A stretch of 56,920 nt of DNA from a virus. The DNA is taken from the IMG/VR virus record IMGVR_UViG_3300025120_014399, positions 1-56,920 of that record; one strand, 5' to 3'. Within the stretch, counting starts at the first letter, position 1; every line of letters starts with the position of its first letter. The translations under genes and the position numbers were made by a program. This document shows positions 10,852-56,920 of the stretch, piece after piece. Under the pieces are notes generated by a model. The model worked only from the letters and a program-made list of their open reading frames with translations, was not told the DNA's origin and did not search any database.

Positions 10852-11105
10852 GTTTAAAAAAAGTTTTACACAAGCTTCTTTTAGAAAAAGGTGCAAAAAA
10901 GGCTAGTAGCAACAATATGTATTTTTTTCTTTCGCCTACTACATGCATAGTAGACAAAAAAGGCTATAAATATACAATTAGTAAAGTTACATTAGAACCC
11001 GAAGTATTAATTCAATGTTACAGATCAGAACTAGACCCGGATCAAGGCGATAAATTTATTACAATTACAGCAAAAGAATTTGATGATTATTATAGGTTGG
11101 CATAA
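10848..11105 (+). CDS. Hypothetical protein
   Basis: This is an 85-residue protein with a GTG start behind AAGGAG, overlapping the deaminase stop by 4 bases. It is predicted to be alpha plus beta, with a basic N-terminal helix and a C-terminal I-T-I-T-A-K-E-F-D segment. No known family is recognised. It ends overlapping the next gene by one base, so it is co-translated with the SOD-like gene. Confidence 0.6.
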   Translation: MSLKKVLHKLLLEKGAKKASSNNMYFFLSPTTCIVDKKGYKYTISKVTLEPEVLIQCYRSELDPDQGDKFITITAKEFDDYYRLA

Positions 11106-11779
11106 TGAATATATTTGACAAAGAAATTAAAAAAGCTATTAAGGATACTATGAGACTAGACGAATCTTTAGTTGCCCAACAAAAGAAATTTGACATTAGA
11201 ACAGACTTTTTAAGTGATTCAAATATTGGTAATCATATAGAGCTTTATGAGACTTATATTAAAGACTTTAATTTAATAAGCGCAAAATTAGATTCTATAG
11301 ACAAAAAAGAAGTTTCATCAAACCACTCTGATTTTAAAAATTTAAAGCATGATGAAACATACAATTTAAATGCTGCGTATCTTCATGAACTTTACTTCTC
11401 AAATATTGGGGATCCAAATTCTCAAATAACAATGGATTCTTTGTCTTACATGCGATTAGCGCGGGATTTTGGTAGTTTTGATAATTGGCAAAATGATTTT
11501 ATTGCATGCTGCCAGAGTTCAAGATGTGGATGGGCAATCACATATTTAAATACATACACACAGACTTTAATGAATTGCGTAATTGATCTCCATTCTCAAA
11601 ATGTACCTACGGGAATGTATCCTGTTATTGTTATGGACTTATGGCAACATGCGTATTATAAAGATTATCTTAAAGATGCTAAAACATATGTTAACGCAAT
11701 GATGAAGCAGTTTAGATGGCCAGTTATTGAAAAAAGAATTATTAAATCAGACAAAATTGCACAGATATTAAGAGGTTAA
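11105..11779 (+). CDS. Fe/Mn superoxide dismutase-like protein with a tag-like N terminus
   Basis: This is a 224-residue protein. The second half follows the Fe/Mn SOD fold: N-A-A-Y-L-H-E-L-Y-F near residue 96 (compare N-A-A-x-x-x-N-H), F-G-S-F-D-N-W near residue 125, G-W-A-I-T-Y-L near residue 143, and the metal-binding D-L-W-Q-H-A-Y-Y at residues 178-185. The first metal histidine may be the H in G-N-H-I-E-L-Y, but its spacing is off by one from E. coli SodB. Metal binding is therefore likely but activity is unproven. Residues 4-20 form a basic helix ending in L-D-E-S, similar to the tags on neighbouring virion-like proteins. Confidence 0.7.
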   Translation: MNIFDKEIKKAIKDTMRLDESLVAQQKKFDIRTDFLSDSNIGNHIELYETYIKDFNLISAKLDSIDKKEVSSNHSDFKNLKHDETYNLNAAYLHELYFSNIGDPNSQITMDSLSYMRLARDFGSFDNWQNDFIACCQSSRCGWAITYLNTYTQTLMNCVIDLHSQNVPTGMYPVIVMDLWQHAYYKDYLKDAKTYVNAMMKQFRWPVIEKRIIKSDKIAQILRG

Positions 11780-11780
11780 T

Positions 11781-12416
11781 ATGAAAAGAAAAATATACAA
11801 TTTGCTTTTTGAAGCAGAAGACAATATTGATTCTCCTGAATCTAGTATGATAATGACTTCAACAAAAATGAAAGCACGAAAAGCGCTAGATAGCGTTGAT
11901 GATCAAATCGATGCACTGATCTTAAGATACGAAGCTTCATCGATAAGAGAAGAGGAAGAAGAACGAGCAATTGCTAGCCTGAGTGAAAGATCACTAAGCT
12001 TTCTAGTAGAGCAAGAAGAAGAACCTATCGATGAGCCTGTTGATGATACAGGGGGCGGTGATGAAGCTGTACCTGAAGAAGCACCAGAGCCATCCGGTAG
12101 CGAAAAAATGGAAGTAGACGCCCCGGCTGAAGATCAGCAAATTCCTGATCTAGATCTAGACGCATTTGCAGCAAGAACTGTTAGATTGATAAACAATCAT
12201 AGAAGCCTACTCAGAATGGAAGAAGCTATTGGTAATAGAATTAAACATTTTTTAGACGAAAATTATGGTGATAAATTTGTACAAAGATATCTTGAAATTT
12301 TAGATAATCAGTACGGCTTGTCTTTTGATCAATTCGAAGATACAAGAGGCATAAAAGACGAGCCTTTTGCGACAGGTGCTTTTGCAGGTGGTACGGGTGG
12401 CCTAGGCGGTGCTTAA
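11781..12416 (+). CDS. Hypothetical acidic protein, probable virion or assembly component
   Basis: This is a 211-residue protein. It opens with M-K-R-K-I-Y-N-L-L-F-E-A, a short basic start followed by L-F-E-A, a possible T4-gp21-like cleavage site. Residues 70-115 are an acidic, Pro/Glu-rich linker, then comes a helical domain, and the end is glycine-rich. The layout suits an internal head or scaffold-like protein. No homologue is recognised. It follows the SOD-like gene by 1 base. Confidence 0.6.
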   Translation: MKRKIYNLLFEAEDNIDSPESSMIMTSTKMKARKALDSVDDQIDALILRYEASSIREEEEERAIASLSERSLSFLVEQEEEPIDEPVDDTGGGDEAVPEEAPEPSGSEKMEVDAPAEDQQIPDLDLDAFAARTVRLINNHRSLLRMEEAIGNRIKHFLDENYGDKFVQRYLEILDNQYGLSFDQFEDTRGIKDEPFATGAFAGGTGGLGGA

Positions 12417-12681
12417 AAATAAAAAGTCGATACATATAAACATAGATCCGGATGATCATGCAAATTTTAAAGTTCAATGTGTCAAAAGAGATCTTTCAAT
12501 GCAAGAGGTATTTGCTGCATTCGCAAAAAGAGTGGGTATGGAATCTTCAGACATGATGAGATTCCTAGACCAGATTGCAAATAACAAGTCAGTTAATTCA
12601 GTTAAAAAGAAATATACTAAGTCTGATATTGATTCAATTTTTAGTATCATACAAGAAGATAATAGTACAGAAGACAGATAG
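12409..12681 (+). CDS. Small DNA-binding protein, ribbon-helix-helix-like (ParG-like)
   Basis: The GTG start lies inside the end of the previous gene. Of 90 residues, the first 45 fit a ribbon-helix-helix fold: a beta strand I-H-I-N-I-D-P-D, then helix D-D-H-A-N-F-K-V-Q-C, then S-M-Q-E-V-F-A-A-F-A. This is the pattern of ParG or plasmid-type repressors. The rest is lysine-rich and helical. It may be a transcription regulator or a DNA-packaging accessory. The fold is inferred from pattern only. Confidence 0.5.
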   Translation: MLKNKKSIHINIDPDDHANFKVQCVKRDLSMQEVFAAFAKRVGMESSDMMRFLDQIANNKSVNSVKKKYTKSDIDSIFSIIQEDNSTEDR

Positions 12682-12709
12682 TTATCAATATATAGAATAG
12701 GAGACTATG

Positions 12710-12979: not shown

Positions 12980-12983
12980 ACAA

Positions 12984-13397
12984 ATGAAATTAAATAGAAA
13001 TAAATTAAAAAAAATGATTAAAGAATCAGTGCAAAAAATTATTGCTGAATCTGAAATGCAAAAAATGCTAGGCTTGGGTCATCAATTTAGCAATGCTGAG
13101 CTTTATAATGCTGCGATGAATATGCTAAGGCAATATCCAGGCATTAGCGAACATTCAATAGAAGGCGAAATGTTAGAAAAAGCAATAAGAAATAGAATGG
13201 TAAGAGATCAAATAGGCATAAAGAATCCAGACTATGAGAATTTTAGCATGATACTAAACGTCTTGGACAAGGATCGCATGCGAAGAATGAGTTATAGACG
13301 TGGAATTGAAGATGAAATGCGCGATGCTGATCCTACTGGGAGAGAACAAAGGTATGGTGCCATGGCCAGATCAGGCAACACTATAAGACGATTTTAA
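12984..13397 (+). CDS. Tagged hypothetical protein (probable virion protein)
   Basis: About 137 residues. It opens with M-K-L-N-R-N-K-L-K-K-M-I-K-E-S, the recurrent basic tag, followed at residue 20 by I-A-E-S, a possible protease site. The remainder is helical and rich in Met, Arg and Asn, with R-G-I-E-D-E-M-R near the end. The start at 12984 was chosen because it gives the tag; an earlier in-frame codon at 12957 lies in the previous gene. The function is unknown. Confidence 0.65.
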   Translation: MKLNRNKLKKMIKESVQKIIAESEMQKMLGLGHQFSNAELYNAAMNMLRQYPGISEHSIEGEMLEKAIRNRMVRDQIGIKNPDYENFSMILNVLDKDRMRRMSYRRGIEDEMRDADPTGREQRYGAMARSGNTIRRF

Positions 13398-13411
13398 GGA
13401 AATGTATCAAA

Positions 13412-13930
13412 ATGAACATATCAAGAAAACAATTAAGACAGATAATCAAAGAAGCTATAGGCGATGCCGACGGTGATGGAACTTCTGACAAAGAAGAGCT
13501 TATAGCAATTGCATCAAACATTAGCGCAGATAATGCACCATCACATGACGCATCGTGGAAGGAATTGCATGCTTTCTTTAACAAAGATTACTTAAGGAAA
13601 AGTAAAGAAGCCAATCAAAAATATCAAAAATGGCACAATAGAGATCGAACACAAGGTAAATATGGTTGGAATATTTCTAAAGAATGGGAAGATCTACTTA
13701 CTTTAATAGATACCAACAATGTACAGCTTGAATTAGAAGATTTAGGAAGTCTTAAAAACTACATGAACGAATTTTTACCAATACAGAAACTTATCACACA
13801 CAAAATTTTAAAATCACCAGAAGAATCCTCTGTTAGAAAAGCTGGGTATTCTTATCTACGACGCATGACCGGTGCTTCAGATCGACATGCTTCAAAAATG
13901 AGCTCAGGCTATTACGGCAAACTCGACTAA
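13412..13930 (+). CDS. Tagged hypothetical protein with a calcium-binding-like loop
   Basis: This is a 172-residue protein. It opens with M-N-I-S-R-K-Q-L-R-Q-I-I-K-E-A, the tag with a possible cleavage after I-K-E. Straight after it comes D-A-D-G-D-G-T-S-D-K-E-E-L (about residues 18-30), which matches the D-x-D-x-D-G...E calcium-loop pattern of EF-hand or dockerin-like proteins. The rest is helical and aromatic. If the tag is cut off, the calcium loop becomes the new N terminus. The function is unknown; a virion location is inferred. Confidence 0.65.
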   Translation: MNISRKQLRQIIKEAIGDADGDGTSDKEELIAIASNISADNAPSHDASWKELHAFFNKDYLRKSKEANQKYQKWHNRDRTQGKYGWNISKEWEDLLTLIDTNNVQLELEDLGSLKNYMNEFLPIQKLITHKILKSPEESSVRKAGYSYLRRMTGASDRHASKMSSGYYGKLD

Positions 13931-13940
13931 TAAGGACTTT

Positions 13941-14327: not shown

Positions 14328-14328
14328 A

Positions 14329-15340: not shown

Positions 15341-18271
15341 GTGAAAGTCGTTGTCAAAAAAAATGTACTCTTTAATCTTCTAAAAGCTTCACTTAGTGAA
15401 TCACGCTCCGGTCATTCAGACTTTTATAGTGATGGTAGCTTTTTAGGTAGATTTGAAGAGAAAGAAGAAGAAATAGATTATTTAAATAGTGACGTTCCAC
15501 TGCGGGCTAGCCCGACGTCTTCAACCCAACTGCATATGAAAAATTTTGATGTTTCGGATCCGGAATATTTGCCGGCATCTAAATCCGGATTTCTAGCTGC
15601 TGCAGCTGCTATATTAGAGCATGTTCCAGACAGTCAAATAGAATTTGCATATGAAAGATTACACAAGCTTCTAGATACTATCATAGAAAAAGAAGATGAA
15701 AGAAACTATGGATCGTTAAAAGAAACTTTTAAAAGATTGTTTTTAAATGAATCTAGGGAATATTATTTAAAAAATGCTGCAAAAAAAGTTAGAATGGGTG
15801 AAGATGCTATTGGTATCGCTCAAGATATGATAGACATGTATGCTGAATTTGAAAACGAAGATGCTTTTGAACTAGGGCGAACAATTGAAGACATATCATA
15901 CGCAGACGCAGGATTCGACATGACACAAGCAACAACACCGGCACCGGTGCTACCTGCTGACAATGTAAGAACTGTTGCCTCACGAAGGCCTCGTCGTGTA
16001 ATAACAAAAAAACAATCTGTTCCTGAACAAAAACCCGATCTAGAATATTCTGCTGAATCCCCTACATCTTGGGATGACTATACTTCAAACGACATCACTG
16101 GAGCCGATGGCCGTGCACTAGCTGCAGCAACAAGTAAAGAGGAGTTTGTGTTAGGGTACAATGATGCATCAAAAGATACTACTTCACCAAAAAAAGACAA
16201 AAGAGACATGTCGGGTATGAATCCTGACTACATAGACGGGTATGAACGTGGTTATAAAGAATTCTCCGGTGAAGTAAAGCCATATAGCTTTGAATCAGAA
16301 TCTAGACCTAACCCTAGGGATCTATTAAAACAGCAAGAAGCATCAATAAAAATTAGTAGAGCTAATTTTGGAGATCCTGACTTACCCGCTGTTTTAAAAT
16401 TAATTCCTGAATTATACTTGATTATAAAAGAAATAGGTTTTAAGTTAGAAGTTGATAGATACAACCTTATGATGTCAGGCGATTCTGTGAAACAGGCAGA
16501 TGCTAATATTAGACAAGTATACAATATTAGTCATTTAGAAAGCTTCATATACTGGAATATGATGAAAGCATATTTCAATAAGGATTACGCTTTAAGGAGT
16601 TTTAATAAACACTTTAATGTTATAATGAGTAGTAAGTATGTAACAAACGAAACAAGAATATTTAAAAAAGGATTCTCGCAAGCTTTAAAGACGGACGGTC
16701 TAGATGAAGAACAAGGTATAGAGCTTTTATCACAAAATTTTGTTGCAAAGATTTTAGATGATGTGTCAAGCTACAACTATGAACCTGACAAAGATAAGCA
16801 TTTAAAAATGACACTAAGGAACACATTTTCAACTTTAGTATCTTATTTTCAATCTGGCAAGGGTGTAGATCAAAAAAGTGCAGAAGGAACTAAAAATTAT
16901 CAAGCAAACAATTCTTTTACGTTTGCTAACAATGTTAAAGAAGAATACAGGGAAGATATTATTTCTGATTTTTTAGACGCATTAACAGAAAAATATTTAG
17001 TAAATAATGTATATAAGGTCAAGTCAGGAAGAAAACTACCTAACAATCCAAAGAAAAACGAATATTATGAATACGATCCAATTGAAGTCAATAAAAAAGC
17101 AACGACATATGCTAATGATATTATTGATGATTCATTAAAGGCTCAGGCTGATGGAACGACAGTTGATATATTTAGCGATGAAAAACAAGAAAATGAAGGT
17201 ATACTGGACAACGAAGATTCACCGGACGAAATGACAGATGAAGAGATATCTCAAAAACTTTCAAATACTAGTGATTTTCAGACATTAGCACCGTTCTTTG
17301 GATTTAGCGGAGCTCCAGGCATGAGACAGTGGTTTTTAAAGTTTGCAAAAAGATTTTTTGAAATGGGTATTATTTCAGCAAAATCAGGAGATAGAACACT
17401 TATTAAATTTCACAGTCAAATGGTCGAAGCTGTCCTAGAAACATTAAATGAAAATCTTCCTGAATTAGCAAACTTAATGTTAGACGAAATAAAAGACGTA
17501 TCTAAAGAAACACAAGACTTTGATGAGCAATCCAGGCTTTTGCTTGTTAATGTTTTACTCACTTGCGCAAAACAAATCGATGAAGCATTTCAAACATTTC
17601 TAGACACTGGTGATGAGCTTCATTCGACAATGGTGTCAGGAAAATCTAAAAATGGTGAAGTACAACCAATTCCTTTTTTAGACTCTTTAGGCGGACAATT
17701 AACCAGATCAGTTAACGGTATGTTTTTTAAGAAAGTATTGACTAGATTGGACCGGTCATGGACAGACTATGTAGCTGAGCAGCTGCAAACAAATAAACAA
17801 TTTATAAACTACATAGCTGACAATATTTCTAATTCCGCAAATATTGACGTAAAGGCAGCAAAATCAGTTGCTGAATACTTTATTGGTAAAAAAAATGCAC
17901 CTACAATTTTAACAAACAGGGTTGGGACAAAAACAGAAAGGGTTTATAAAACAGCAGCTAAAGGAAATCCATCAAAAGGTGTTAAGACATTAATGAAGTA
18001 CGGTATTGATGCTGATGCGTATCACATAATAAACATCGAAGCACAAGATTGGTTTGAGGATATGCTAATGACAGACTTTGCAAAAGTACTGGCAGATGGG
18101 GAAGTTTTTAAAGGACAGTACAGAGAGTTGATTGAAAAAGATTACGCAAAACTAAGCAAAAACATTAAGTCATTTAAAACCGTTGTATTGACGGCTTTGC
18201 AAGATGTCATCGTCGGATCAGAAGAAAGAATGGCAATGGATCAGCTAAAAGATTATGAGGTGGAAAGTTAA
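15341..18271 (+). CDS. Large hypothetical protein (976 residues), probable virion or DNA-associated protein
   Basis: The GTG start lies behind AGGAG. The N terminus V-L-F-N-L-L-K-A-S-L-S-E-S looks like a variant of the virion tag with an L-S-E-S cleavage-like site at about residues 18-21. Residues 30-240 are acidic and partly low-complexity. Around residues 268-307 the pattern G-Y-N-D-A ... D-Y-I-D-G-Y-E-R-G-Y recalls ribosome-modulation-factor-like repeats. The remaining part is mostly helical, with F-F-G-F-S-G-A-P-G-M-R-Q-W-F-L-K near residue 655. I do not recognise the family. It ends overlapping the next start (TAATG). Confidence 0.6.
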   Translation: MKVVVKKNVLFNLLKASLSESRSGHSDFYSDGSFLGRFEEKEEEIDYLNSDVPLRASPTSSTQLHMKNFDVSDPEYLPASKSGFLAAAAAILEHVPDSQIEFAYERLHKLLDTIIEKEDERNYGSLKETFKRLFLNESREYYLKNAAKKVRMGEDAIGIAQDMIDMYAEFENEDAFELGRTIEDISYADAGFDMTQATTPAPVLPADNVRTVASRRPRRVITKKQSVPEQKPDLEYSAESPTSWDDYTSNDITGADGRALAAATSKEEFVLGYNDASKDTTSPKKDKRDMSGMNPDYIDGYERGYKEFSGEVKPYSFESESRPNPRDLLKQQEASIKISRANFGDPDLPAVLKLIPELYLIIKEIGFKLEVDRYNLMMSGDSVKQADANIRQVYNISHLESFIYWNMMKAYFNKDYALRSFNKHFNVIMSSKYVTNETRIFKKGFSQALKTDGLDEEQGIELLSQNFVAKILDDVSSYNYEPDKDKHLKMTLRNTFSTLVSYFQSGKGVDQKSAEGTKNYQANNSFTFANNVKEEYREDIISDFLDALTEKYLVNNVYKVKSGRKLPNNPKKNEYYEYDPIEVNKKATTYANDIIDDSLKAQADGTTVDIFSDEKQENEGILDNEDSPDEMTDEEISQKLSNTSDFQTLAPFFGFSGAPGMRQWFLKFAKRFFEMGIISAKSGDRTLIKFHSQMVEAVLETLNENLPELANLMLDEIKDVSKETQDFDEQSRLLLVNVLLTCAKQIDEAFQTFLDTGDELHSTMVSGKSKNGEVQPIPFLDSLGGQLTRSVNGMFFKKVLTRLDRSWTDYVAEQLQTNKQFINYIADNISNSANIDVKAAKSVAEYFIGKKNAPTILTNRVGTKTERVYKTAAKGNPSKGVKTLMKYGIDADAYHIINIEAQDWFEDMLMTDFAKVLADGEVFKGQYRELIEKDYAKLSKNIKSFKTVVLTALQDVIVGSEERMAMDQLKDYEVES

Positions 18272-18681
18272 TGCTAACATCATCTATTTTAAATAGTATT
18301 CTTGGAAAAAACACTTTAAAAGAATCAATCGATATTTACCAAAATGAAGCTTTTGATCAATTAGACTTTATTAATAGACAGATGAAGTTTAGTGACGTAC
18401 CCGTAGAAGCAAAAGAGTCTAGCTGGACTGAATTTGATCACGGAGCCTACACAGCAATTGAAAAACTATATACAATGAAAGACAATGATCATTTAATATA
18501 TTTTATAAACGAAATATTAAAAGAAAGCCAAAGAATTAATCACCACCCTAAAATCATGATCGATCACATGAACGTTGATATATCACTATATACAAAAGAC
18601 ATTAATGATGTGACTGAGTCTGATATTAAATTGTCAAGAATAATTGACGAAGTCTATAATGATATATTTTTTATTGAGTAA
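18271..18681 (+). CDS. Pterin-4a-carbinolamine dehydratase-like protein
   Basis: This is a 136-residue protein. The C-terminal 75 residues fit the PCD/DCoH fold: a helix with F-I-N-E-I-L-K-E-S-Q-R, then I-N-H-H-P-K at residues 89-94 (active-site H-H-P), then a strand N-V-D-I-S-L-Y-T-K-D and a helix D-I-K-L-S-R-I-I-D. The third catalytic histidine of PCD sits in T-H-D; here that position reads T-K-D, so the family dehydratase activity is doubtful. Residues 1-28 are a separate extension containing L-K-E-S, similar to the tags of neighbours. Flanking genes are virion-like, so a structural use is possible. Confidence 0.65.
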   Translation: MLTSSILNSILGKNTLKESIDIYQNEAFDQLDFINRQMKFSDVPVEAKESSWTEFDHGAYTAIEKLYTMKDNDHLIYFINEILKESQRINHHPKIMIDHMNVDISLYTKDINDVTESDIKLSRIIDEVYNDIFFIE

Positions 18682-18684
18682 CTG

Positions 18685-19044
18685 ATGGCATTTTTTGTAA
18701 GCAAAGACTTGGAAGGCAGAGTAGATGAAAATAGTTTAATACCAAATTCTTCAGTAGAAAGAATATCAAAAGAATTTGTTTTACAAGTAGACGAAGTAGA
18801 ATTTCAAATAATAGAAATAAAATTTTTTAATAATGATATATTTGACTATGCTGAAATAGAATGTGAATGTAATATTTATGCTGTTGATTATTTAGCTTTT
18901 TCTAAAGAAAGCGGAAAAATATATTTTAAAAATAACACAATAGAAATAAGTGATTTGCAAATTATTAAAATTTTAAAAAAAGATAATGATATTTATAGTA
19001 TAAGAGTAAATGGATCTATTCCAAGAGGAAAAATCAATGTTTAA
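18685..19044 (+). CDS. Hypothetical beta-rich protein
   Basis: This is a 119-residue acidic protein, mostly beta strands, with no known family. Segments such as F-Q-I-I-E-I-K-F-F and Y-S-I-R-V-N-G-S-I repeat a sandwich-like pattern. It lies 3 bases after the PCD-like gene and overlaps the acidic protein at 19037 by 8 bases. A small virion or assembly protein is one possibility. Confidence 0.55.
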   Translation: MAFFVSKDLEGRVDENSLIPNSSVERISKEFVLQVDEVEFQIIEIKFFNNDIFDYAEIECECNIYAVDYLAFSKESGKIYFKNNTIEISDLQIIKILKKDNDIYSIRVNGSIPRGKINV

Positions 19045-19774
19045 AATAGATAGTGAAAAAGAGCTTTTGTCTTTTTTGAGAATACTTTCAGAAGAGTCAG
19101 TAAAAAAATCAAAAAATACGCTTAGTGAAAAATCATCAGATGAGCTTTCTTCATCCTTTGATAAAAGATTAGAAGATGAAAATGAATTATATGAGCAAGA
19201 GGATGATGCAGATCCTGAATTGGCTGCTGATACTGTTGAAGAAGAAGAAGTTGAAGAAGAAGAAGTTGAAGAAGAAGCTGCGGATGAAGCTGAGCCTGAA
19301 GTGCAGCAGAAACCTGATGAAGAATTACGAGCTAGCTTAGATTCTTTGGAAAGAAATATTAATTCACTTAGAGCAGGTAGGTCACTAAAGGATAGCACAG
19401 TTGAAAGCCAATTAGAAATTTATTTTGATAGACTGGGTGATGATGAAAAATCTTTAATGGTTCTTTTTATAAGAGAGCTTTCAAAAATTCTGTCCGGAAA
19501 AGTTACGGGTGACAATGCTGTTGATCCAAATCAAGAACCTTACAACCTAGATGTAGTTCAATCCGGTGAAGAAGAACCTGCTGAGGCGGAAGTTCCAGCT
19601 GAGTCTGAAAAAAACATTGACGATCTTGCTGACACTTACGCAGAAGAAGAAGAAGAAGTTGAAGAAGAAGAAGTTGAAGAAGACGAAGAAGATAATTCGC
19701 CGCCAATTCAGGTAGGGAAACAACAAAATTTAGCAGAAATAAGAAGAAAAATTCAAAAGCTTATGAGATCATGA
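19037..19774 (+). CDS. Highly acidic repeat protein, possible scaffold or internal head protein
   Basis: About 245 residues. The start at 19037 was chosen for the AGAGGA upstream; an earlier ATG at 19010 is in frame. Two Glu/Val runs built on the E-E-E-V unit lie near residues 67-80 and 200-216. Between them is a helical domain (residues 100-165) with L-E-I-Y-F-D-R-L-G-D-D-E-K. The N terminus has L-L-S-F-L-R-I-L-S-E-E-S, and the C terminus R-R-K-I-Q-K-L-M-R is a short basic helix. Acidic low-complexity arms with a basic end are common in scaffold proteins, but this is not diagnostic. Confidence 0.6.
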   Translation: MFKIDSEKELLSFLRILSEESVKKSKNTLSEKSSDELSSSFDKRLEDENELYEQEDDADPELAADTVEEEEVEEEEVEEEAADEAEPEVQQKPDEELRASLDSLERNINSLRAGRSLKDSTVESQLEIYFDRLGDDEKSLMVLFIRELSKILSGKVTGDNAVDPNQEPYNLDVVQSGEEEPAEAEVPAESEKNIDDLADTYAEEEEEVEEEEVEEDEEDNSPPIQVGKQQNLAEIRRKIQKLMRS

Positions 19775-20703
19775 TGAGGATAAAGGAAGACGATATACGA
19801 AAAATAATTAGGCACGCAATCTTAAATGAGATTACCAGCCCTAGAATGGCAGATATCAGCTCTTTTAAATCAAAAGACTGTCCATACTATCGTGACATAC
19901 CTGCAAAGTTTGCAAAACTTATGGCGTCAGGAACTTTTGGAGAGATGGCAGACACACTTAGCAGAAAATTTCCAAAAATAGCTAGCGACTTGGGCATGAT
20001 TGGTCTAGGAAGTCAGGCAGGGGAGATCAGTACTGGTACATACCACCCGAGTGATATGGCGTCTATAGGTAAAAGCGATAATACAGCACAAATATTGTTT
20101 GGATATATCAATAGTTATGCATATGCTCAAGGCATGGGATGTTTAGAGTTTTATTATCTTGGGCTAGCTCTTGATTTTTTAGATACACTCTTCGGAGGAG
20201 CAGAAGGCAGAGGTAATAACAAGCCACCTGTTAATCCGAGAAATACAATTGTTGAATTTAGAAAAGGTATTGAAGAGAAATCTGTAGAATTAGCTCATGA
20301 CTCTGCTGGGTTCGTCAATAATTATGCATTCTATTCTTTACCTAGACTAGCAGGTAAGGGACCAGAATACAATGAAAGTGATTGTATTGATTTGCTAACT
20401 AAAGACTTGAAAGACTATCAATCAAGAATTGATACTATCAGAAACATAAGAGAGAATAGCATATCTGATGCTTATGAAAAAATTATAGACACATTAGATA
20501 TTGAATCAACTAAGGTTGCTAAAAGTATTGATTTGTCTGCAATAGACAGAGAAGATATTAATCTTTCTGAACAGCTTAAGAAAAATGCTATAGCAGATTT
20601 AATTATAGTGCTGTCTGATGCGAGACTCAATTACAATAATGTAATTAGTTCGAACAAAGATTTTAATATGATATTTAGAAATTTTATTACTTCAAATTCA
20701 TAA
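19771..20703 (+). CDS. Tagged hypothetical protein (310 residues), probable virion protein
   Basis: The start overlaps the previous stop (ATGA). The N terminus M-R-I-K-E-D-D-I-R-K-I-I-R-H-A-I-L-N-E is a form of the recurrent tag. The body has two parts: residues 25-150 are mixed with many Gly and aromatic residues (Y-A-Y-A-Q-G-M-G-C-L-E-F-Y), and residues 150-310 are helical. No family is recognised. A clear TATAAT promoter follows, so this gene likely ends a transcription unit. Confidence 0.6.
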   Translation: MMRIKEDDIRKIIRHAILNEITSPRMADISSFKSKDCPYYRDIPAKFAKLMASGTFGEMADTLSRKFPKIASDLGMIGLGSQAGEISTGTYHPSDMASIGKSDNTAQILFGYINSYAYAQGMGCLEFYYLGLALDFLDTLFGGAEGRGNNKPPVNPRNTIVEFRKGIEEKSVELAHDSAGFVNNYAFYSLPRLAGKGPEYNESDCIDLLTKDLKDYQSRIDTIRNIRENSISDAYEKIIDTLDIESTKVAKSIDLSAIDREDINLSEQLKKNAIADLIIVLSDARLNYNNVISSNKDFNMIFRNFITSNS

Positions 20704-21156: not shown

Positions 21157-21615
21157 ATGAAGATAAACGTAGACAGAATGGCTAGACTAGCCGGTTTAAG
21201 CAAAAATTCTAGTAGATCATCTAAATCTTTAAACGAAGGCATGAGTTACGATCACATGGAAGAAATGGATCATGAAAAGCCTATGGAAGAAATGTATGAA
21301 GAAGATCCTATGGAAGAAATGTATGAAGAAGAATCTGATTTCATGGAAGAGATAATTGAAGTTGATGAAGTTGAGTTGGTTCAAGAACTTCGAAGAGCTA
21401 AAAAAATAATGCTCGAGTCTAAAAAAAGAAAAACAAGTCAGAGTTTGCAAGAATTAAAACTTCAAAAAATAATTGAAGAGGAAGTTCAAAATATTTTTGG
21501 TGAAATGGATTTAAACTTAAATTCAGACTGGGTGTATGGATCAAACAAGCCAAAGCGATCAAAAAAAGGTTATTCACATCAAGGTAGCTTCTTAAAAGGC
21601 ATGGGTTTTAAATAA
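21157..21615 (+). CDS. Acidic protein with M-E-E-M repeats, probable virion or assembly protein
   Basis: This is a 152-residue protein behind GGAGG. It opens with M-K-I-N-V-D-R-M-A-R-L-A-G-L and then S-L-N-E-G, a possible cleavage site near residue 28. Residues 30-65 hold about five copies of a (D/E)-P-M-E-E-M-Y-E-E-like unit. A helical region and a basic Gly/Lys C terminus follow. The repeat codes for a strongly negative arm, as in scaffold or decoy proteins. The function is unknown. Confidence 0.6.
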   Translation: MKINVDRMARLAGLSKNSSRSSKSLNEGMSYDHMEEMDHEKPMEEMYEEDPMEEMYEEESDFMEEIIEVDEVELVQELRRAKKIMLESKKRKTSQSLQELKLQKIIEEEVQNIFGEMDLNLNSDWVYGSNKPKRSKKGYSHQGSFLKGMGFK

Positions 21616-27163: not shown

Positions 27164-27586
27164 ATGTCATTTAATCATCCCAAACCAGGTCCGAATCTAG
27201 TCGGTGCTTATCAAATGAGTGGAATTCCTTTTGTTACAGGTTCAACGGGCGCAGCTGAAACTATTACTAGAAAAGAATTTCCTTTTCCTTTCGTCACTAG
27301 ATTTATTACGCTTTCTAATTCAAATAACGATGCGGCCGAAGAATTACGTATATCATTTTCCGCTGAAGGCGGAATTGGTGGCCCTGGTGCAGTTGAAAAA
27401 TATGAGTTTCTTTGTCCCGTAAATAATGCTGTGACACTAGATGTAAGGTGTAAAACTATATTTGTTACAACATCAGCAGCTATGGAATGGTCACTTTGCG
27501 CTGGGTTGACACCAATTGCTGCAGTTGATTTTCCTGTTCTTACAGGCAGTAAAGGCTTTGCCGGTGTCGGTGGCGCTGCCTTATAA
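27164..27586 (+). CDS. Probable virion protein, beta-sandwich (head decoration or fibre type)
   Basis: This is a 140-residue protein behind AGGAG. It is rich in Gly, Ala, Thr and Phe. G-A-Y-Q-M-S-G-I-P-F-V-T, F-P-F-V-T-R-F-I-T-L-S-N and L-D-V-R-C-K-T-I-F-V-T-T alternate as strands. The composition differs from the Lys/Asn-rich neighbours and fits a small surface or decoration protein of the virion. The name is inference; the ORF itself is solid. Confidence 0.65.
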   Translation: MSFNHPKPGPNLVGAYQMSGIPFVTGSTGAAETITRKEFPFPFVTRFITLSNSNNDAAEELRISFSAEGGIGGPGAVEKYEFLCPVNNAVTLDVRCKTIFVTTSAAMEWSLCAGLTPIAAVDFPVLTGSKGFAGVGGAAL

Positions 27587-36492: not shown

Positions 36493-37275
36493 ATGAAAAT
36501 AAATAGAAAACAATTAAGAAAGATTATAATCGAAGCAATGTACGATCCAATGCATGGTATTAAAAGTTTAGATGGACCTTATAGAGACAAAATTATGAGT
36601 GTGCTCGACAATCCAGATACATCACCTGAAGATCGCACACAGTTTCATCAGCTTGCTGATACAGTTACAGATTATAAAGATCCGCGTCCTGGCATGCCGG
36701 ATGATTCTATGGCAGGTGTCGATGCCCAGAAGGAACAATACTTGAAGGACGCAGGAAAATATATTGCACCGCACCTACCGGGATTTCTTAATCTTCCTCA
36801 AGCTATAATTGATGCAGTAGTAGAATTTGTTTTCTTATCAAGTAACCCAACTTTACATATACAAATTGATGTCGATGGCCTCGAAGAAGACATAGGCGAA
36901 AACATGTTTTACAGAGCGTCCAACTATCCGGATCGTAATTTACCAGAAAACGCAGATGCAGTGAAAATCGTAGATTCCTATCGAAACAATCCTGAAAGTC
37001 ATGATGCTAAATATTACGAGATTTACGCACCCACTGGTACTTATAAAGGCGTTGATCCGTTTTCAAAGATAGACCCGTACTTTGATCCAAATTCTCAATA
37101 TGCTGCGCATAGGACGGGCGACGGTCAAACTGGTTTTCATGAGGGTTTTAGAGAAGAATACCATAAAGTCACCACAAAACCAGCACATAAGATAGACAGC
37201 TATACAGTTGAGCGCGCTTTTATAGAAATGATGAGAGACTTAAGACCGGATCATAGAGAAACAGTAATTAACTAA
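36493..37275 (+). CDS. Tagged hypothetical protein (260 residues), probable virion protein
   Basis: The start at 36493 gives M-K-I-N-R-K-Q-L-R-K-I-I-I-E-A, a textbook form of the tag with I-I-E-A as cleavage-like site; an upstream TTG at 36481 lies in the previous gene. The mature part is acidic, with D-G-P-Y-R-D-K near residue 28, a hydrophobic helix L-P-Q-A-I-I-D-A-V-V-E-F-V near residue 108, and H-I-Q-I-D-V-D-G-L. No family is recognised. The gene follows the previous one by 2 bases. Confidence 0.65.
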   Translation: MKINRKQLRKIIIEAMYDPMHGIKSLDGPYRDKIMSVLDNPDTSPEDRTQFHQLADTVTDYKDPRPGMPDDSMAGVDAQKEQYLKDAGKYIAPHLPGFLNLPQAIIDAVVEFVFLSSNPTLHIQIDVDGLEEDIGENMFYRASNYPDRNLPENADAVKIVDSYRNNPESHDAKYYEIYAPTGTYKGVDPFSKIDPYFDPNSQYAAHRTGDGQTGFHEGFREEYHKVTTKPAHKIDSYTVERAFIEMMRDLRPDHRETVIN

Positions 37276-37303: not shown

Positions 37304-37792
37304 ATGAAAATAACAAGAAAGCAATTAAGAAAGTTACTTTTAAAAGAATTTGACATGTCTGGCATGTCTGGTAGCATCATCGATGATCTTCACGCAGGCG
37401 CCGGCGGACAGCCGCCGGCAAAGCCGCCAGTACATAGAGGCGGCGGCGGCGGAAGAAGACCTAAGAAAGGCCCATGTGAATCAGGTATGCCGCAATTTGA
37501 AACTTCATATGATTTAGTTTTTGAAACTTTCGCTGTATGGGTACAGAACAATGAAAATTTTGGAGGCCCAACCGGAACAGAAAATTTTGAAAATTATTTT
37601 AATCATTTAGTATCTTTAGATATCACCGACGAAGAAGAGGGCATTTCTGACGTCATAAAAGGTATGATGGATGTCTATGCTACCTATTATTGCGCTACTC
37701 GCTCGAGCGATTATCCACCATCAATTGAAACCATCTACAATAATCCTGTCGCTGCAATTAATCACTACTGGAATTCTAGCAATGATGAATAA
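37304..37792 (+). CDS. Tagged hypothetical protein with a GC-rich Gly/Pro linker
   Basis: This is a 162-residue protein. It opens with M-K-I-T-R-K-Q-L-R-K-L-L-L-K-E. Residues 28-55 form a Gly/Pro/Lys linker coded by unusually GC-rich DNA that can fold into an 8-base-pair hairpin (37400-37419). The C-terminal 100 residues are an acidic helical domain with F-E-T-F-A-V-W-V-Q-N-N and two Cys. It overlaps the NUDIX gene by 11 bases. The function is unknown; a virion location is inferred from the tag. Confidence 0.65.
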   Translation: MKITRKQLRKLLLKEFDMSGMSGSIIDDLHAGAGGQPPAKPPVHRGGGGGRRPKKGPCESGMPQFETSYDLVFETFAVWVQNNENFGGPTGTENFENYFNHLVSLDITDEEEGISDVIKGMMDVYATYYCATRSSDYPPSIETIYNNPVAAINHYWNSSNDE

Positions 37793-38265: not shown

Positions 38266-38853
38266 ATGAAGTTAAATAGAAAATTGCTTAAAAAGCTTAT
38301 TCAAGAAGAAATAGAAAACCTTTCTTATGATCGCTCAAAAAATATTGAAAAGTATATAATTGATTTTGACGAGCCCTTTGAAGTTGAAGCTCATGAAGAT
38401 GCATGGGCAGGAGGCAGAAACATCTATAGTAATGCCGATCATTTAAAAGATTACGGATCTAAAGAAAAAAGTATAACAGGTATAGAAAGATTAATTCACA
38501 AAACAGAACTTAAAGAAGCTTCTTCATCAAATCGTGAGCTAAGAACATTGATATATGAAGAAATGAAAAAAGTTTCAGAATTAAAGCAATTTATTAATTC
38601 TCGTGGCGGAAAAAAATTCTTGCAAGCAGGCAGGAAAATAGAATCTGCTGGGACTTCGATTAGAGAGTTAGGTCACGATCACACAGGCATCATGAGAGAG
38701 ACGCTTTATAATGTTTCTGAATTTGTAGAAAAACTAGGCCATTCAATCGGAAGTGTAAATGAGTTAGATGAAGACTCTTCAACAGAAAGTACCTTACCTA
38801 CTGTTGCAGAGCTTAAAAAACTTATTAAGTCAATTAAACGATTGGAAAAATAA
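38266..38853 (+). CDS. Tagged helical protein with a second internal tag-like segment
   Basis: This is a 195-residue protein. It starts M-K-L-N-R-K-L-L-K-K-L-I-Q-E-E. Around residues 87-101 the sequence S-S-N-R-E-L-R-T-L-I-Y-E-E-M-K resembles a second tag. The rest is helical, with G-A-G-type turns rare and a final K-K-L-I-K-S-I-K-R-L-E-K. It may be two fused tagged units. No family is recognised. It ends directly before the cysteine-synthase-like gene. Confidence 0.6.
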   Translation: MKLNRKLLKKLIQEEIENLSYDRSKNIEKYIIDFDEPFEVEAHEDAWAGGRNIYSNADHLKDYGSKEKSITGIERLIHKTELKEASSSNRELRTLIYEEMKKVSELKQFINSRGGKKFLQAGRKIESAGTSIRELGHDHTGIMRETLYNVSEFVEKLGHSIGSVNELDEDSSTESTLPTVAELKKLIKSIKRLEK

Positions 38854-43559: not shown

Positions 43560-43796
43560 ATGGAAAAAAAGAATTCAATTAAGGACTTACATCTAGATAA
43601 GCCGACTAGTCATGGTGGCTGGCCAGATGGACATTCTGGGAGTTATACAGACCCAGACACACCGGTAAACAAACAAATTGCTAAGTATCTCGAGGATATG
43701 GGCTTAATTGATGACTCAAATCCTCGAGCTCGTTTAAGCGAGTCCAAAATTAGAAGTTTAATTAGAGAAGAAATAATTAGAATTTTGTCTGAATAG
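43560..43796 (+). CDS. Small protein with conserved N terminus and C-terminal tag
   Basis: This is a 78-residue protein behind GAGGT; the ATG at 43560 is preferred over an upstream non-ATG start. Residues 9-45 read D-L-H-L-D-K-P-T-S-H-G-G-W-P then V-N-K-Q-I-A-K-Y-L, a block I associate with other phage proteins. The end S-E-S-K-I-R-S-L-I-R-E-E-I-I is the recurrent tag, placed at the C terminus. The function is unknown. It is a compact example of the tag on the opposite end. Confidence 0.65.
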   Translation: MEKKNSIKDLHLDKPTSHGGWPDGHSGSYTDPDTPVNKQIAKYLEDMGLIDDSNPRARLSESKIRSLIREEIIRILSE

Positions 43797-49653: not shown

Positions 49654-51186
49654 ATGGGCGGAATAGCAGGACACATGAATCATGTCTATGATAATCTTAA
49701 CTTGACATTTTCAGGATTACTAGATATATTAACACAGGCAGCAGCCGGCAGCTTAAATCCCACAGAAAAAGTTGACGGTCAAAATCTTTATTTTACATAT
49801 GACTTTAGAGATAATCAAGTAAAGTTTGCACGTCGTCCGGCCGAAGCAGCATCTGGTGGGATTACTAAAGAAGCACTTAATTCAGAATTTATTAGAAAAA
49901 GAGATAACAGTACAAACCCGGAAGGATATCAAAGTGTTGTTGATGCTTTTTATTTTGGAATGACTGCAATAGAGATGGGAATTAATTCAGCACAGGAACA
50001 AACAATATTATCTTTGTTTGAACGTGCAAAAGCAGCTGATGTTTCTGATGACACACCTTATGATACTCCGACTGTTTTTATTAATTGTGAAATTATGTAT
50101 TCAGAAAATAGAAATATGATTATGTATGATGGTGACTTTATTGTATTTCATAAATTTGACTTACTAAATGAAAATCTTGAATCATTGTCAAAAGAAGAAC
50201 TTTTAAAGTTAGATAGTTCAATGAGGGAAAAATTTAATTCGCTCGTTGCAGAAGTTGAAAAAAGCGAACAGACTGTCGCAGGACGTCAATGGAAAGTCGT
50301 AGGACCTCAAACAAGGAAATTAAGAAATCTTGACAGTTCATTTATTGAAGAATCGAGAACAAAAATTCAAAATATTGTCCAGAAATATAATATGACTTTG
50401 GATAATAAATTTTCTGACTTTTTAGCTGCGGGTGTTGCTGAGTATGTAAAGGAAGCAGGTTTTACTGTACTAGTTCCAAAAGATGTTGTTACTATTTTAC
50501 AGAAAGCTGTAATTGACCCGGCCGGGTTTTCAAACAACCCAGGTAGGTTAGGAAATACTTTGTTGCCCCAAGGACCAAGAAAAGGGAGTGCAAGGAAAAC
50601 AATAATAAATAACTATATAGGTGGGTCTAAATCAGATGCAGGTTTGCTTTCTAACTTTCTTGCAAAAGGAAAAGCTTTTGCCTTAATGTCTCGCATCTTA
50701 GAGCCATTTGCACAAATTACTCCAGGTTTGACTGCTTCACTTATGAGAGACGTTCCTTCTGCTTTTATGAAAGATAGTGATAAAGGAACAAAAATATTTA
50801 GAAGAACAGTCGAGTTAGCAATACAACATTTAGAAAACATGTTCCGGAACGCGGATCCCGCTGATGAAAAAATTAACAGTCTTAAGAATCGATATAACAA
50901 ACAAATGGCCAGGTTACAGTCTGTTGACAATATTTCTTCAGCAATGGAAGGCGTTGTTTTTGAATATCCGCCAATGTCAAATCAATTTTATAAATTTACA
51001 GGAGGTTTTGCAGCTGCAAATCAGATACTTGGTTATTTGGGCTGGGACGTCAAAGATGATCTAACTCAACAAGCCGCATCAGAAATTAATGCAGAAGTAT
51101 TAAATATTTCTGAAGCAAAACTTAAAAGAATGATAAGAGAATCAATAGCAAAAACTTACCTTGCGATGCTACCGAGATATAAATAG
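49654..51186 (+). CDS. Divergent ligase-like nucleotidyltransferase with C-terminal virion-type tag
   Basis: This is a 510-residue protein. It opens G-G-I-A-G-H-M-N-H-V-Y-D-N, which I associate with a marine phage protein family. E-K-V-D-G-Q-N (Lys39) matches motif I (K-x-D-G) of ATP-dependent DNA/RNA ligases. N-C-E-I-M-Y (Glu146) fits motif III, E-G-V-V-F-E-Y (residue 432) motif IV, and Y-K-F-T-G-G-F (Lys447) motif V. A 280-residue helical insert separates III from IV. The C terminus I-S-E-A-K-L-K-R-M-I-R-E-S-I is the recurrent tag. It may adenylylate a nucleic acid end, but this is unproven. Confidence 0.6.
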   Translation: MGGIAGHMNHVYDNLNLTFSGLLDILTQAAAGSLNPTEKVDGQNLYFTYDFRDNQVKFARRPAEAASGGITKEALNSEFIRKRDNSTNPEGYQSVVDAFYFGMTAIEMGINSAQEQTILSLFERAKAADVSDDTPYDTPTVFINCEIMYSENRNMIMYDGDFIVFHKFDLLNENLESLSKEELLKLDSSMREKFNSLVAEVEKSEQTVAGRQWKVVGPQTRKLRNLDSSFIEESRTKIQNIVQKYNMTLDNKFSDFLAAGVAEYVKEAGFTVLVPKDVVTILQKAVIDPAGFSNNPGRLGNTLLPQGPRKGSARKTIINNYIGGSKSDAGLLSNFLAKGKAFALMSRILEPFAQITPGLTASLMRDVPSAFMKDSDKGTKIFRRTVELAIQHLENMFRNADPADEKINSLKNRYNKQMARLQSVDNISSAMEGVVFEYPPMSNQFYKFTGGFAAANQILGYLGWDVKDDLTQQAASEINAEVLNISEAKLKRMIRESIAKTYLAMLPRYK

Positions 51187-52817: not shown

Positions 52818-53727
52818 ACTACTAATAGCTTTGTTTGCATCATCATGCTCATCAGATGTGTCTATTATGAAAAGATACGATGAAGAAAACAAAGACACAA
52901 ACGAAGTTGTTGTTGTAGAAGAAGACAACACAGAGGCTTCAAGTGAACCTGATGATTCTCCAACCAATGAACCAACGGCTGAACCATCATCAGAAATGTC
53001 TGAGCTGACCATTGGTTACGGCGAAATATATTTTAGACAAATAGCATGCCCTCCTTGCGTAGGTGCTTCTTCAGAATTTGATATCACTGCAACTCTAAAA
53101 CTTCATCAGCCAACTAGTGGTGACTACACAGAATATCTGCAAGAACCCGGCACATGTACAACAAATCTGATTCAGACTCATGTAAGCTCTCAACCTCTGA
53201 CAACTAGTCAGTCGGCAGCATTTAATGGGATGACGTTAAACCCTAACGGGCCCGGAGAATGGTATAATGGTTTTATATATGAGTATCAATATGAACGCAA
53301 TGCCAGCTATTCAGTAACTTCAGAGCACGGTACTATTAATAATGCATTCACAACAATTGAAGGTTTTGACGATATTCAACCCTACACTTTACTGTGGGTC
53401 GATCCTAGCTACGCATATGATGCAGTTATTAGCAAGTCGGGCACTAATTTTTCATGGCAACCTGTTGTAAATAACAGCTTATTCGAGATAATTATAGCTG
53501 TGTATTCATCAGACGGATCACAATTTTTAGGTGCAGTCAGCTGTCTAGAAGAAGATCAAGGCTATATGCATATACCTGGAAGTTATTTTCAGATGTATCC
53601 AACATGGTCAATAGCAGCAGTTCACTTAATTAGACATAAAATAGATAGAGTACCAGCCCAACAATTTAATGGTTACTTTCAGAGTCATATGATTTGGGAA
53701 GTGGTAGGAACAGGACATATAGAATAA
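52807..53727 (+). CDS. Predicted secreted lipoprotein with acidic Glu/Pro/Ser/Thr linker
   Basis: This is a 306-residue protein. Residues 1-14 (L-L-I-A-L-F-A-S-S-C) are a short lipoprotein signal. Residues 20-65 are acidic, with N-E-P-T-A-E-P-S-S-E, as in many envelope lipoproteins of Myxococcota-like bacteria. Residues 70-300 are a beta-rich domain with paired cysteines (A-C-P-P-C, G-T-C-T-T, S-C-L-E). It may be a superinfection-exclusion or cell-surface protein expressed in the host. It overlaps the bS21 start by one base. Confidence 0.7.
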   Translation: MKNKLLIALFASSCSSDVSIMKRYDEENKDTNEVVVVEEDNTEASSEPDDSPTNEPTAEPSSEMSELTIGYGEIYFRQIACPPCVGASSEFDITATLKLHQPTSGDYTEYLQEPGTCTTNLIQTHVSSQPLTTSQSAAFNGMTLNPNGPGEWYNGFIYEYQYERNASYSVTSEHGTINNAFTTIEGFDDIQPYTLLWVDPSYAYDAVISKSGTNFSWQPVVNNSLFEIIIAVYSSDGSQFLGAVSCLEEDQGYMHIPGSYFQMYPTWSIAAVHLIRHKIDRVPAQQFNGYFQSHMIWEVVGTGHIE

Positions 53728-53930
53728 TGGCAACAAATATAAAAGTAAAAGTAAGAAAAGGCGAAGATGTTAATAAGGCAATCCGCAGATTTAAAAAACT
53801 GTATGAAGCAGAAGGAGTGTTAAAAGATATCAAGCGAAAAAGATACTACATGAAGCCCAGCGAGGCAAAGAAGTATAAAAGAGTTATGGCAGCTAAAAAA
53901 AGAAGAAAAGCAGCAAGAAGAAGAAAATAA
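53727..53930 (+). CDS. rpsU: Ribosomal protein bS21
   Basis: This is a 67-residue protein, normal bS21 length. V-K-V-R-K-G-E-D-V-N-K-A-I-R-R-F-K-K near residue 7 and K-R-K-R-Y-Y-M-K-P-S-E near residue 36 match the family, and the C terminus is a run of Lys, Arg and Ala. bS21 sits on the small subunit near the anti-Shine-Dalgarno and helps initiation. Phage copies are known in large phages; they may steer host ribosomes to phage mRNA. The ATG overlaps the previous stop (TAATG). Confidence 0.95.
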   Translation: MATNIKVKVRKGEDVNKAIRRFKKLYEAEGVLKDIKRKRYYMKPSEAKKYKRVMAAKKRRKAARRRK

Positions 53931-53967
53931 TTGTTTTTTTGAAGATATATATTGATAACGGTGTAAT

Positions 53968-54429: not shown

Positions 54430-54449
54430 ACTTTTAAGTCACAGTAAGC

Positions 54450-54698: not shown

Positions 54699-54699
54699 T
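54694..54699 (+). promoter_or_regulatory. Putative -10 box (TATAAT) upstream of gene 54718
   Basis: TATAAT in a GCATATAATAC context overlaps the stop of the preceding gene and lies 18 bases before the start at 54718. AGGAGG follows. Confidence 0.4.
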
Positions 54700-54717
54700 A
54701 CTTCATAGGAGGTATTT

Positions 54718-55548: not shown

Positions 55549-55849
55549 ATGGAAAGAAGTTGGTTCATGGAATGTAGGCACAGCTGATGGAGGAACTGAA
55601 AAATATTCTTTATCTGAGAATAAAGATACAGGAAATTTCAGAATTAAAAATGAATTTGGGAATATAACAATAGACATGGAACGCATGTCCGGACACAAGT
55701 TTCTTAAAAAAGTTTTAAAAAAAATGGAAGAGATAATATCACCTGGTGTCGACTATGATGATGACCTTTGGGCAAAATCTTTGGGTTTAGACTTCGATGG
55801 TGATGATAGCAATGATAATGACTATAACGACTGTGACCATACAGACTAA
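55538..55849 (+). CDS. Small acidic hypothetical protein
   Basis: This is a 103-residue protein; ATG 55538 is chosen for GGGAG upstream. The first 60 residues are beta-rich (W-K-E-V-G-S-W-N-V-G-T, F-R-I-K-N-E-F-G-N-I). The end is a run of Asp and Asn. No family is recognised. It precedes the exonuclease gene by 11 bases. Confidence 0.55.
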   Translation: MTSRWKEVGSWNVGTADGGTEKYSLSENKDTGNFRIKNEFGNITIDMERMSGHKFLKKVLKKMEEIISPGVDYDDDLWAKSLGLDFDGDDSNDNDYNDCDHTD

Positions 55850-55860
55850 GGGGATAAAAA

Positions 55861-56445
55861 TTGGGTAATATAACAACAGCAAAAGCAATTACGTTTTTAG
55901 ACATCGAGACAACGCACCTAGACGCTTCAAAAAGCGCTATTCTTTCAATCTCAATAATTACTGATTGGGATGGCGGGAAGCAAGATGTATGGACGACAAA
56001 GATAAAGCCAAAAGATATTGAAATGCAGTTTGCTTCTAAGGAAGCACTCGAAGTCTGTATGTATAGCGAAGAAGAATGGGCAGACGCACCGAGCTTTTCA
56101 GAAGTCGCACCTGAAATTGCAAAGCGTCTTATGTGGGGCCCACTGGTTGCACATAATATACAGTTTGACGTAGGTCATATTAGATCTGTCTTTAAAAGGT
56201 ACGGGTATAGAGAGGCACAACGGAACGAAAGAGTTGAAAGCAACAACAAGCTTTATAAAATTGGATATCCTCAAATAGATACATGCGCATTAGCCTACCT
56301 TTTCTTGCCAACTGAGCGCCAAAACTTAGATACACTTAGATCGCATTTCAAGATACCGGCAGGTAGATCACACTCCGCGGATACAGATGCTGAAGATTGC
56401 CGGCATGTTTTTTATAAGATACTGGAATTTATATCACCGGGTTAA
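55861..56445 (+). CDS. DnaQ-like DEDDh 3'-5' exonuclease
   Basis: The TTG start lies behind AAGGGG. This 194-residue protein has Exo I F-L-D-I-E-T-T (Asp14, Glu16), Exo II A-H-N-I-Q-F-D near residue 97, and Exo III H-S-A-D-T-D-A-E-D near residue 170, with the DEDDh His. It is a proofreading-type exonuclease like the epsilon subunit of DNA polymerase III. With dnaE at 1895 it could give the phage polymerase its proofreading. Confidence 0.92.
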   Translation: MGNITTAKAITFLDIETTHLDASKSAILSISIITDWDGGKQDVWTTKIKPKDIEMQFASKEALEVCMYSEEEWADAPSFSEVAPEIAKRLMWGPLVAHNIQFDVGHIRSVFKRYGYREAQRNERVESNNKLYKIGYPQIDTCALAYLFLPTERQNLDTLRSHFKIPAGRSHSADTDAEDCRHVFYKILEFISPG

Positions 56446-56484
56446 TATGTATAGATATAATATTAATCAGGAAGAGTATTAAAT

Positions 56485-56920
56485 ATGTTAGTTAGTAGAA
56501 GAAAAATAAAAAAGCTAATCATTTCAGCTATCTTAGAACAAATTAATCTAAAAAATCATACTGAATGGTCGCTATTAAAAGAAAACATATCCGCAGCTGA
56601 CGGAGAGGCTCTTATAAAAGCTTCACAAAAAGGTGAAAAAGTTTTTAAAAAATTGTTTCGTAAGCTGGCCAGGAAATATCATCCCGATAAACTCCCCGGA
56701 CCTCGGGGTCTTAATGCATTTCAGCAGCTGAATAACGCCAATATCATCGCCAATAAGTCCTTCGACAACAACCGTACGCCCCCCCGATCATCTATCCGGA
56801 ATGGGATAAAAAACGGCCGCATGGATCCCAAAGCGCTAAAGAAAGCGCAAGAGGCATTCACCAAAGCAGCAGCTGAAAAAGCTAAAAAAGAAGCAGCTGA
56901 AAAAGCAGCTAAAGCAGCAG
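56485..56920 (+). CDS. Tagged J-domain protein (3' end outside window)
   Basis: The frame is open to the right edge. It starts M-L-V-S-R-R-K-I-K-K-L-I, the recurrent basic tag. Residues 55-90 are a J-domain core: L-F-R-K-L-A-R-K-Y-H-P-D-K, with the H-P-D that stimulates Hsp70, then helix III-like F-Q-Q-L-N-N-A-N. Bases about 56690-56850 are GC-rich with C-ending codons, unlike the rest of the window. The last visible part is Ala/Lys/Glu repeats (A-A-E-K-A-K-K-E). A virion-carried DnaK co-chaperone is a hypothesis. Confidence 0.65.
   Translation, partial: MLVSRRKIKKLIISAILEQINLKNHTEWSLLKENISAADGEALIKASQKGEKVFKKLFRKLARKYHPDKLPGPRGLNAFQQLNNANIIANKSFDNNRTPPRSSIRNGIKNGRMDPKALKKAQEAFTKAAAEKAKKEAAEKAAKAA

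Follow-up and report, generated by a model that had tools for sequence, protein, structure and literature searches.

The DNA considered here is virus record IMGVR_UViG_3300025120_014399, analysed whole as one window of 56,920 bases, in which no prohead-operon region is found. It encodes a set of proteins that share a short basic tag with the consensus M-K-(I/L)-(T/S/N)-(R/K)-x-x-L-(R/K)-x-(L/I)-I-x-E and a mean charge of +3.4. The tag mostly forms the N-terminus and is accompanied by (L/I)-x-E, a protease-type site; in some proteins it lies at the C-terminus or inside the chain. The genes that bear it are listed below, with ↓ marking the putative cut and bit scores taken from the independent profile described thereafter.

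12984-13397 (+): tagged gene, leader MKLNRNKLKKMIKE↓SVQKIIAE↓SE, 21.1 bits; no orthologue in four relatives
13412-13930 (+): tagged gene, leader MNISRKQLRQIIKE↓AIGDAD, 32.1 bits; no orthologue in four relatives
19771-20703 (+): weaker tagged gene, leader MMRIKEDDIRKIIRHAILNE↓IT, LNE site, 7.6 bits; no orthologue
33471-35606 (+): gene tagged at both ends, GTG start, N-terminal leader MKIKKNKLKKVISKSLKDDLIFE↓A, 11.0 bits
35541-35549 (site) and 35550-35603 (helix) (+): C-terminal tag of 33471, NIAE↓TKLTRSHIRKLLRELINQ, 23.5 bits
35603-36490 (+): tagged gene, leader MNISKHKFRKLIFENIILSE↓GLRYH, 8.1 bits; conserved body begins directly after the site
36493-37275 (+): tagged gene, leader MKINRKQLRKIIIE↓AMYD, 30.5 bits; hidden Markov model (HMM) E 1.8e-10
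37304-37792 (+): tagged gene, leader MKITRKQLRKLLLKE↓FD, 29.1 bits; HMM E 3.6e-8
38266-38853 (+): gene with N-terminal and internal tag, leader MKLNRKLLKKLIQE↓EIEN, then domain 1, 18.8 bits
38509-38517 (LKE↓A) and about 38533-38571 (RELRTLIYEEMKK) (+): internal tag of 38266, followed by domain 2
43560-43796 (+): small protein with C-terminal tag, RLSE↓SKIRSLIREEIIRILSE, helix 43743-43793, 15.5 bits
44398-46611 (+): tagged gene, leader MKISRKQLRYHLNKMLNE↓TD, 14.0 bits; no orthologue in four relatives
49654-51186 (+): ligase-like protein with KVDG motif and C-terminal tag, NISE↓AKLKRMIRESIAKTYLAMLPRYK, helix 51115-51183, 15.5 bits
51187-51492 (-): tagged gene, leader MQVSRSQLRKIILREVKSLLE↓AT, 22.9 bits
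53968-54429 (+): tagged gene, leader MKISRKRLKSLIENYLFE↓QEE, 18.5 bits
56485-56920 (+): gene truncated by the window end, leader MLVSRRKIKKLIISAILE↓QI, 9.5 bits

The independent profile has 13 columns and was trained only on the tags of three related contigs (G002, 135 kb; G004, 284 kb; G005, 202 kb), without sequences from the window or from a fourth relative, G001 (236,652 bases), which was reached through window protein 49654. Almost the whole of each of these four contigs was analysed. Together with a selection on 11 columns, this profile replaced a first one that had been built from E-containing tags and was therefore biased to the site. Run over the proteome, it ranks the genes named in a preliminary description of this DNA highest in the window. 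Eight gene starts exceed 11.6 bits, the 95% level of the best score per shuffle in 300 shuffled window proteomes (mean 6.6, maximum 18.5), and the four weaker N-termini (33471, 56485, 35603 and 19771) match exactly at the start codon. The helices previously noticed at the ends of 33471, 43560 and 49654 are borne out by their C-terminal scores, and 44398 and 53968 are indeed identical over their first 19 bases. The window and G001 proteins together contain 56 matches of at least 14 bits, compared with 0.32 expected from shuffles (another 13-column profile of the tag); nearly all are N-terminal, and three of those in the window are C-terminal. Each of the four relatives carries 25-42 N-tagged open reading frames (ORFs). 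The estimate of about twenty tagged proteins has to be lowered to about 14 genes that bear the tag proper, because the four looser forms proposed at 11105, 11781, 15341 and 19037 fail the profile (scores -6 to -17); these genes have other leaders and had been over-included.

Searches outside this group returned little. A DNA-level search of positions 11000-35999 against GenBank phages gave no near relative. A tblastn search of the same phages with the 20-residue tag consensus gave no match, which proves little, since so short a query leaves the search with low sensitivity. Across about 85,000 genomes of bacteria and archaea the tag pattern had two exact matches, and neither 8-kb stretch contains anything above 10 bits by the independent profile. 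A search of open-access papers for the tag letters brought up no description, although an earlier account elsewhere is possible.

Because E belongs to the tag consensus, tags were re-selected by the first 11 columns only, leaving the E column out. Of the 152 N-terminal tags chosen in this way, 150 have (L/I)-x-E downstream, with E at offset 11-24, whereas shuffled controls had the site in 74.5 ± 5.7 (maximum 90). Inside the tag core the site is missing from 32 of the 152, and 30 of these have it a little further on, at 14-26. It is likewise present in 133 of 137 N-terminal tags from five proteomes, and across nine leader or tail families nearly all members have (L/I)-x-E and the remainder V-x-E. 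The expectation that A, S, G or T would follow the site was only partly borne out: the site itself is far above chance, but there is no specific preference for these residues (A 0.97×, S 1.26×, G 1.77× and T 0.76× relative to background, compared with 2.88× for E), and D, L, Y and W are avoided.

The site also survives where leaders change, and tag and site persist through exchanges of the cargo body. In the 35603 family, a common body stands directly behind LSE↓G, LLSE↓G or LEE↓A in three distinct leaders (KKLLSE↓GLKYH in G005, TLEE↓AILYH in G004). The tag is absent from the four looser genes, but (L/I/V)-x-E near the start persists across their relatives. These and two further genes with other leaders are:

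11105-11779 (+): Fe/Mn superoxide dismutase (Pfam 1.6e-18), leader ...TMRLDE↓SLVAQ
11781-12416 (+): acidic protein, short leader MKRKIYNLLFE↓AED
15341-18271 (+): large protein, leader ...FNLLKASLSE↓SRS
18271-18681 (+): protein with other leader, ending ...TLKE↓S; relatives have IFE, LNE, IRE and IEE
19037-19774 (+): acidic protein, leader ...RILSE↓E, C-terminal QNLAE↓IRRKIQKLMRS
21157-21615 (+): protein with other leader, RMARLAGL...KSLNE↓G; relatives have LNE, LYE and LRE

The dismutase leader has diverged and contains an indel, yet E20 is invariant in five phages and lies upstream of the homology to solved dismutases, which starts at residue 28 or later. Since five relatives keep both gene and site, the comparison suggests that the enzyme is carried in the virion. 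For 11781, L-F-E↓A/Q is found in the window, G001, G005 and G004, and in G002 the leader of the orthologue is long and basic and ends in ISE↓Q. Relatives of 15341 have LNE↓N, LNE↓N and INE↓D at the matching place (one separate query for its relatives returned none), and the C-terminal L-x-E↓IR(R/K) of 19037 is kept in G001, G005 and G002.

The same helix type occurs at N- or C-termini, with the site on the cargo side, as in 33471, where it follows the N-terminal and precedes the C-terminal helix. As the site of a C-terminal tag lies directly before the helix, a single cut would suffice to take off the tag at either terminus. In the 43560 family (six distinct phages) the C-terminal helix is kept and is directly preceded by L-x-E, with V-N-E in G005 as the exception. 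The 49654 family (three phages) keeps its C-terminal tag and site as well (SLNE↓A in G001, EITE↓G in G005); the body of 49654 has a weak RNA_ligase match, and its AlphaFold model (predicted local distance difference test score, pLDDT, 52) was not used. Domain 2 of 38266 stands alone as a gene of G002 (129087), where it starts with a canonical N-terminal tag; tagged genes have therefore become fused, and the inner tag was retained. The earlier suggestion that the tag can move to either end thus holds for the helix, which occurs at both, but among orthologues no pair turned up in which the tag sits at opposite ends.

The tagged genes are accessory. None of 10 N-tagged genes has orthologues in at least three of the four relatives, compared with 34 of 74 other genes (Fisher p = 0.005). 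The relatives do encode orthologues of the window's housekeeping genes, which are mostly collinear with G001. The G001 counterpart of 53968, at the same place in the gene order, aligns over the first 21 residues only (71%). Next to 53968, a small basic protein is encoded at 53727-53930 (+) that, by eye, presumably resembles ribosomal protein bS21; G001 and G005 each have a related gene in the corresponding position. Among the relatives, 103 tagged proteins from four contigs were compared with Pfam, and few have any match. The clearest cargo match is a kinase-like protein of G002 (locus L150, 7294-8343; Zeta_toxin/AAA_33 P-loop) behind ...ESLILE↓G, a candidate injected effector. A dCMP deaminase and a matrixin protease were dropped as cargo, as their ORFs are apparently wrongly extended; tagged ORFs also gave tentative SET, LysM and TseH-like matches. 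In two G002 loci (L149 and L150), many small tagged genes follow one another on the same strand, which recalls a cassette array of tagged cargo, and some frames have two tags.

A prohead protease gene, which the preliminary description had called for, was found as a T4-type Peptidase_S77 in the head operon of the relatives, not in the window. In G001, matches to Gp23 (9.8e-78), Portal_T4 (1.3e-73) and Peptidase_S77 (2.1e-27) accompany a T4-like order of portal, S77, scaffold position and Gp23, and the protein in the scaffold position (G001:149456) is very acidic, with a net charge of -51. Peptidase_S77 is present in 20 of 24 records searched, G001, G004, G005 and G006 included (E 2.7e-28 among relatives), and was not found in G002, a tag-rich partial contig. 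Gp23-type capsid proteins have L-x-E at residue 61 in 76 of 77 cases, in the form L-R-E↓(A/Q/S), and LTE↓G at 12. The site at residue 61 we take, from general knowledge of the gp23 sequence and not from an alignment, to be the T4 gp23 cut position. In T4 itself, gp23 is cut after E65; its propeptide is 65 residues long (PMC9026906). Immediately behind the protease, 34 of 36 loci (near-duplicates among them) have an ORF with a tag-like helix that mostly ends I-L-(A/S)-E↓G. This ties the helix to the head operon; the ORF also holds further (L/I)-x-E sites. The window is best explained as a fragment of a large T4-like (Gp23/Peptidase_S77) phage.

Two side observations concern the same region. In loci L066 (G011, 4535-6226) and L085 (G015, 4922-6592), the S77 match falls into two parts within one frame of about 560-570 residues; this would fit a large in-frame insert, possibly an intein. 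The window protein at 27164-27586 (+) contains ...YQMSGIPFVTGS, and look-alikes (YQMSAIPFVTS), in loci such as L064, L077 and L083, sit between the protease and the tagged operon gene; by this resemblance it may be a head protein.

Sequence comparison shows the tag to be genuine, a modular leader whose protease-type site is conserved. We propose, with a probability of roughly 0.8, that it serves genome-wide as a head-packaging address, an analogue of the T4 capsid-targeting sequence (CTS) that is unrelated to it in sequence. Packaging, cleavage, scaffold binding and injection are the steps we infer. The tag would bind the prohead core during core assembly, probably via the very acidic scaffold protein, and so bring the attached protein inside the prohead. 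During head maturation, the S77 protease would separate tag from cargo by cutting after (L/I)-x-E; the former would be lost, and the latter would stay in the head and enter the next cell with the DNA. In proteins with C-terminal tags, where the site precedes the helix, the same cut would free the cargo, and fused genes with inner tags and sites might be loaded as one chain and then cut into parts. The picture as a whole, a loading and delivery system in which at least 30 fast-changing proteins per genome use one address, N-terminal, C-terminal or inside fused chains that are cut in the head and injected as parts, is put forward tentatively.

The internal proteins of T4 share only a common short N-terminal leader, by which they enter the prohead core and which gp21 cuts off after L/I-x-E (PMC9026906; PMC3012670; PMC12373910). 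Like this CTS (IPI, IPII, IPIII and Alt; gp21), the present tag is a short N-terminal leader common to unrelated, fast-changing proteins, it ends in (L/I)-x-E, and the relatives have T4-type protease, portal and capsid genes. The analogy drawn in the preliminary description is strengthened by the S77 gene in a T4-type head operon, the gp23-type L-x-E, the excess of sites over chance and the swapped cargo. By every testable feature the tag appears to work like the T4 leader, but it is basic, otherwise unrelated and not homologous in sequence, and the tag HMM has no match in T4. It differs further in scale (25-42 N-tagged ORFs per large contig, compared with a handful in T4), in its C-terminal and inner positions, and in the similar helix that starts a conserved head-operon gene. 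T4 Alt is cut by gp21 at both ends, at ITE-6 and LTE-619 (PMC5694885), which is a precedent for removing a C-terminal piece after (L/I)-x-E and is matched by the site near each end of 33471. The C-terminal piece here carries the N-tag helix, however, whereas no role is settled for the C-terminal propeptide of Alt.

Among phiKZ-like phages, SPN3US likewise has many internal proteins that are cut by a prohead protease, for which a C-terminal targeting region has been inferred. However, the cut there follows A-x-E and mostly removes long propeptides of more than 100 residues, and the available part of the account describes no short tag on dozens of proteins; the present tags do not follow this rule, as their site is (L/I)-x-E, whose E lies 11-26 residues after the start of the tag. 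The cultured Flavobacterium phage immuto (locus L116; S77, Gp23-type) also has a repeated leader ending L-K-E (NFDLKKFLVENKLTTNSKILKE↓N and NFNLRSFLTENKLTKNAQLLKE↓G), but its sequence differs, and only two tag-HMM matches occur in the whole immuto genome. The two adjacent immuto genes (7588-8888) share the leader NF-(D/N)-L-(K/R)-x-F-L-x-E-N-K-L-T-x-N, which is perhaps the address of that lineage.

Several points weigh against a packaging address. Peptidase_S77 is found in relatives only and not in the window, and the phages are uncultured and known here from sequences alone. A motif as short as (L/I)-x-E is also present in 30% of untagged proteins over the same stretch; many of the sequences are related, so that the counts are not independent; and the profile came originally from E-containing tags, a bias removed by the 11-column re-selection. 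Moreover, the tag is unlike the T4 CTS except for its (L/I)-x-E end. Its hydrophobic moment (0.92) hardly exceeds that of shuffles (0.87 ± 0.035), which makes the picture of an amphipathic helix weak, and such a helix is not claimed. Finally, codons for the same tag residue are identical at a frequency of 0.50, compared with 0.44 from genome usage (G001).

An unlikely alternative is that the basic helix binds nucleic acid or a cell structure, such as the membrane or a replication compartment, and acts in the infected cell, with (L/I)-x-E as an uncut part of the helix. The mean charge of +3.4, and a likeness to the T4 leader confined to the tag end, would fit this idea. However, it does not account for a site that is kept outside the helix and with other kinds of leader and lies on the cargo side at both ends, nor for the similar helix in the head operon, and no recognisable replication, nucleotide or tail gene is tagged in the window and G001 lists. 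Somewhat less probable still is that the tagged proteins belong to the scaffold or prohead core and, like T4 gp67 and gp68, are destroyed when the head matures, as might be suspected from the operon gene after the protease, which has a helix of similar kind and additional (L/I)-x-E sites. Conservation would be expected of core parts, whereas the tagged proteins are many, very varied in size (median 199 residues) and mostly not shared by relatives; moreover, a kinase-like protein is tagged, and the superoxide dismutase and the ligase-like protein carry equivalent sites. That a DNA-level recombination or translation-start cassette is copied between genes, the peptide having no role, is very improbable despite the 19 identical bases in two genes and the slight excess of identical codons, since codons for the same residue agree in no more than about half of cases, near what codon usage gives, which indicates that the peptide and not the DNA is kept, and since the tag also occurs C-terminally and inside proteins.

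If the tag is indeed a head-packaging address, it would list the injected proteins of a phage from sequence alone. Such proteins are known for very few model phages, and tag and site together would give predicted lists from metagenomes. T4 internal proteins block host defences; the predicted injected proteins of these uncultured marine phages, nearly all without known function, show a turnover like that of the T4 internal proteins. The C-terminal tags bear on a question raised for T4 Alt, namely whether a C-terminal propeptide can be a targeting signal, and an address that functions at both termini would offer a useful means of getting proteins into phage heads.

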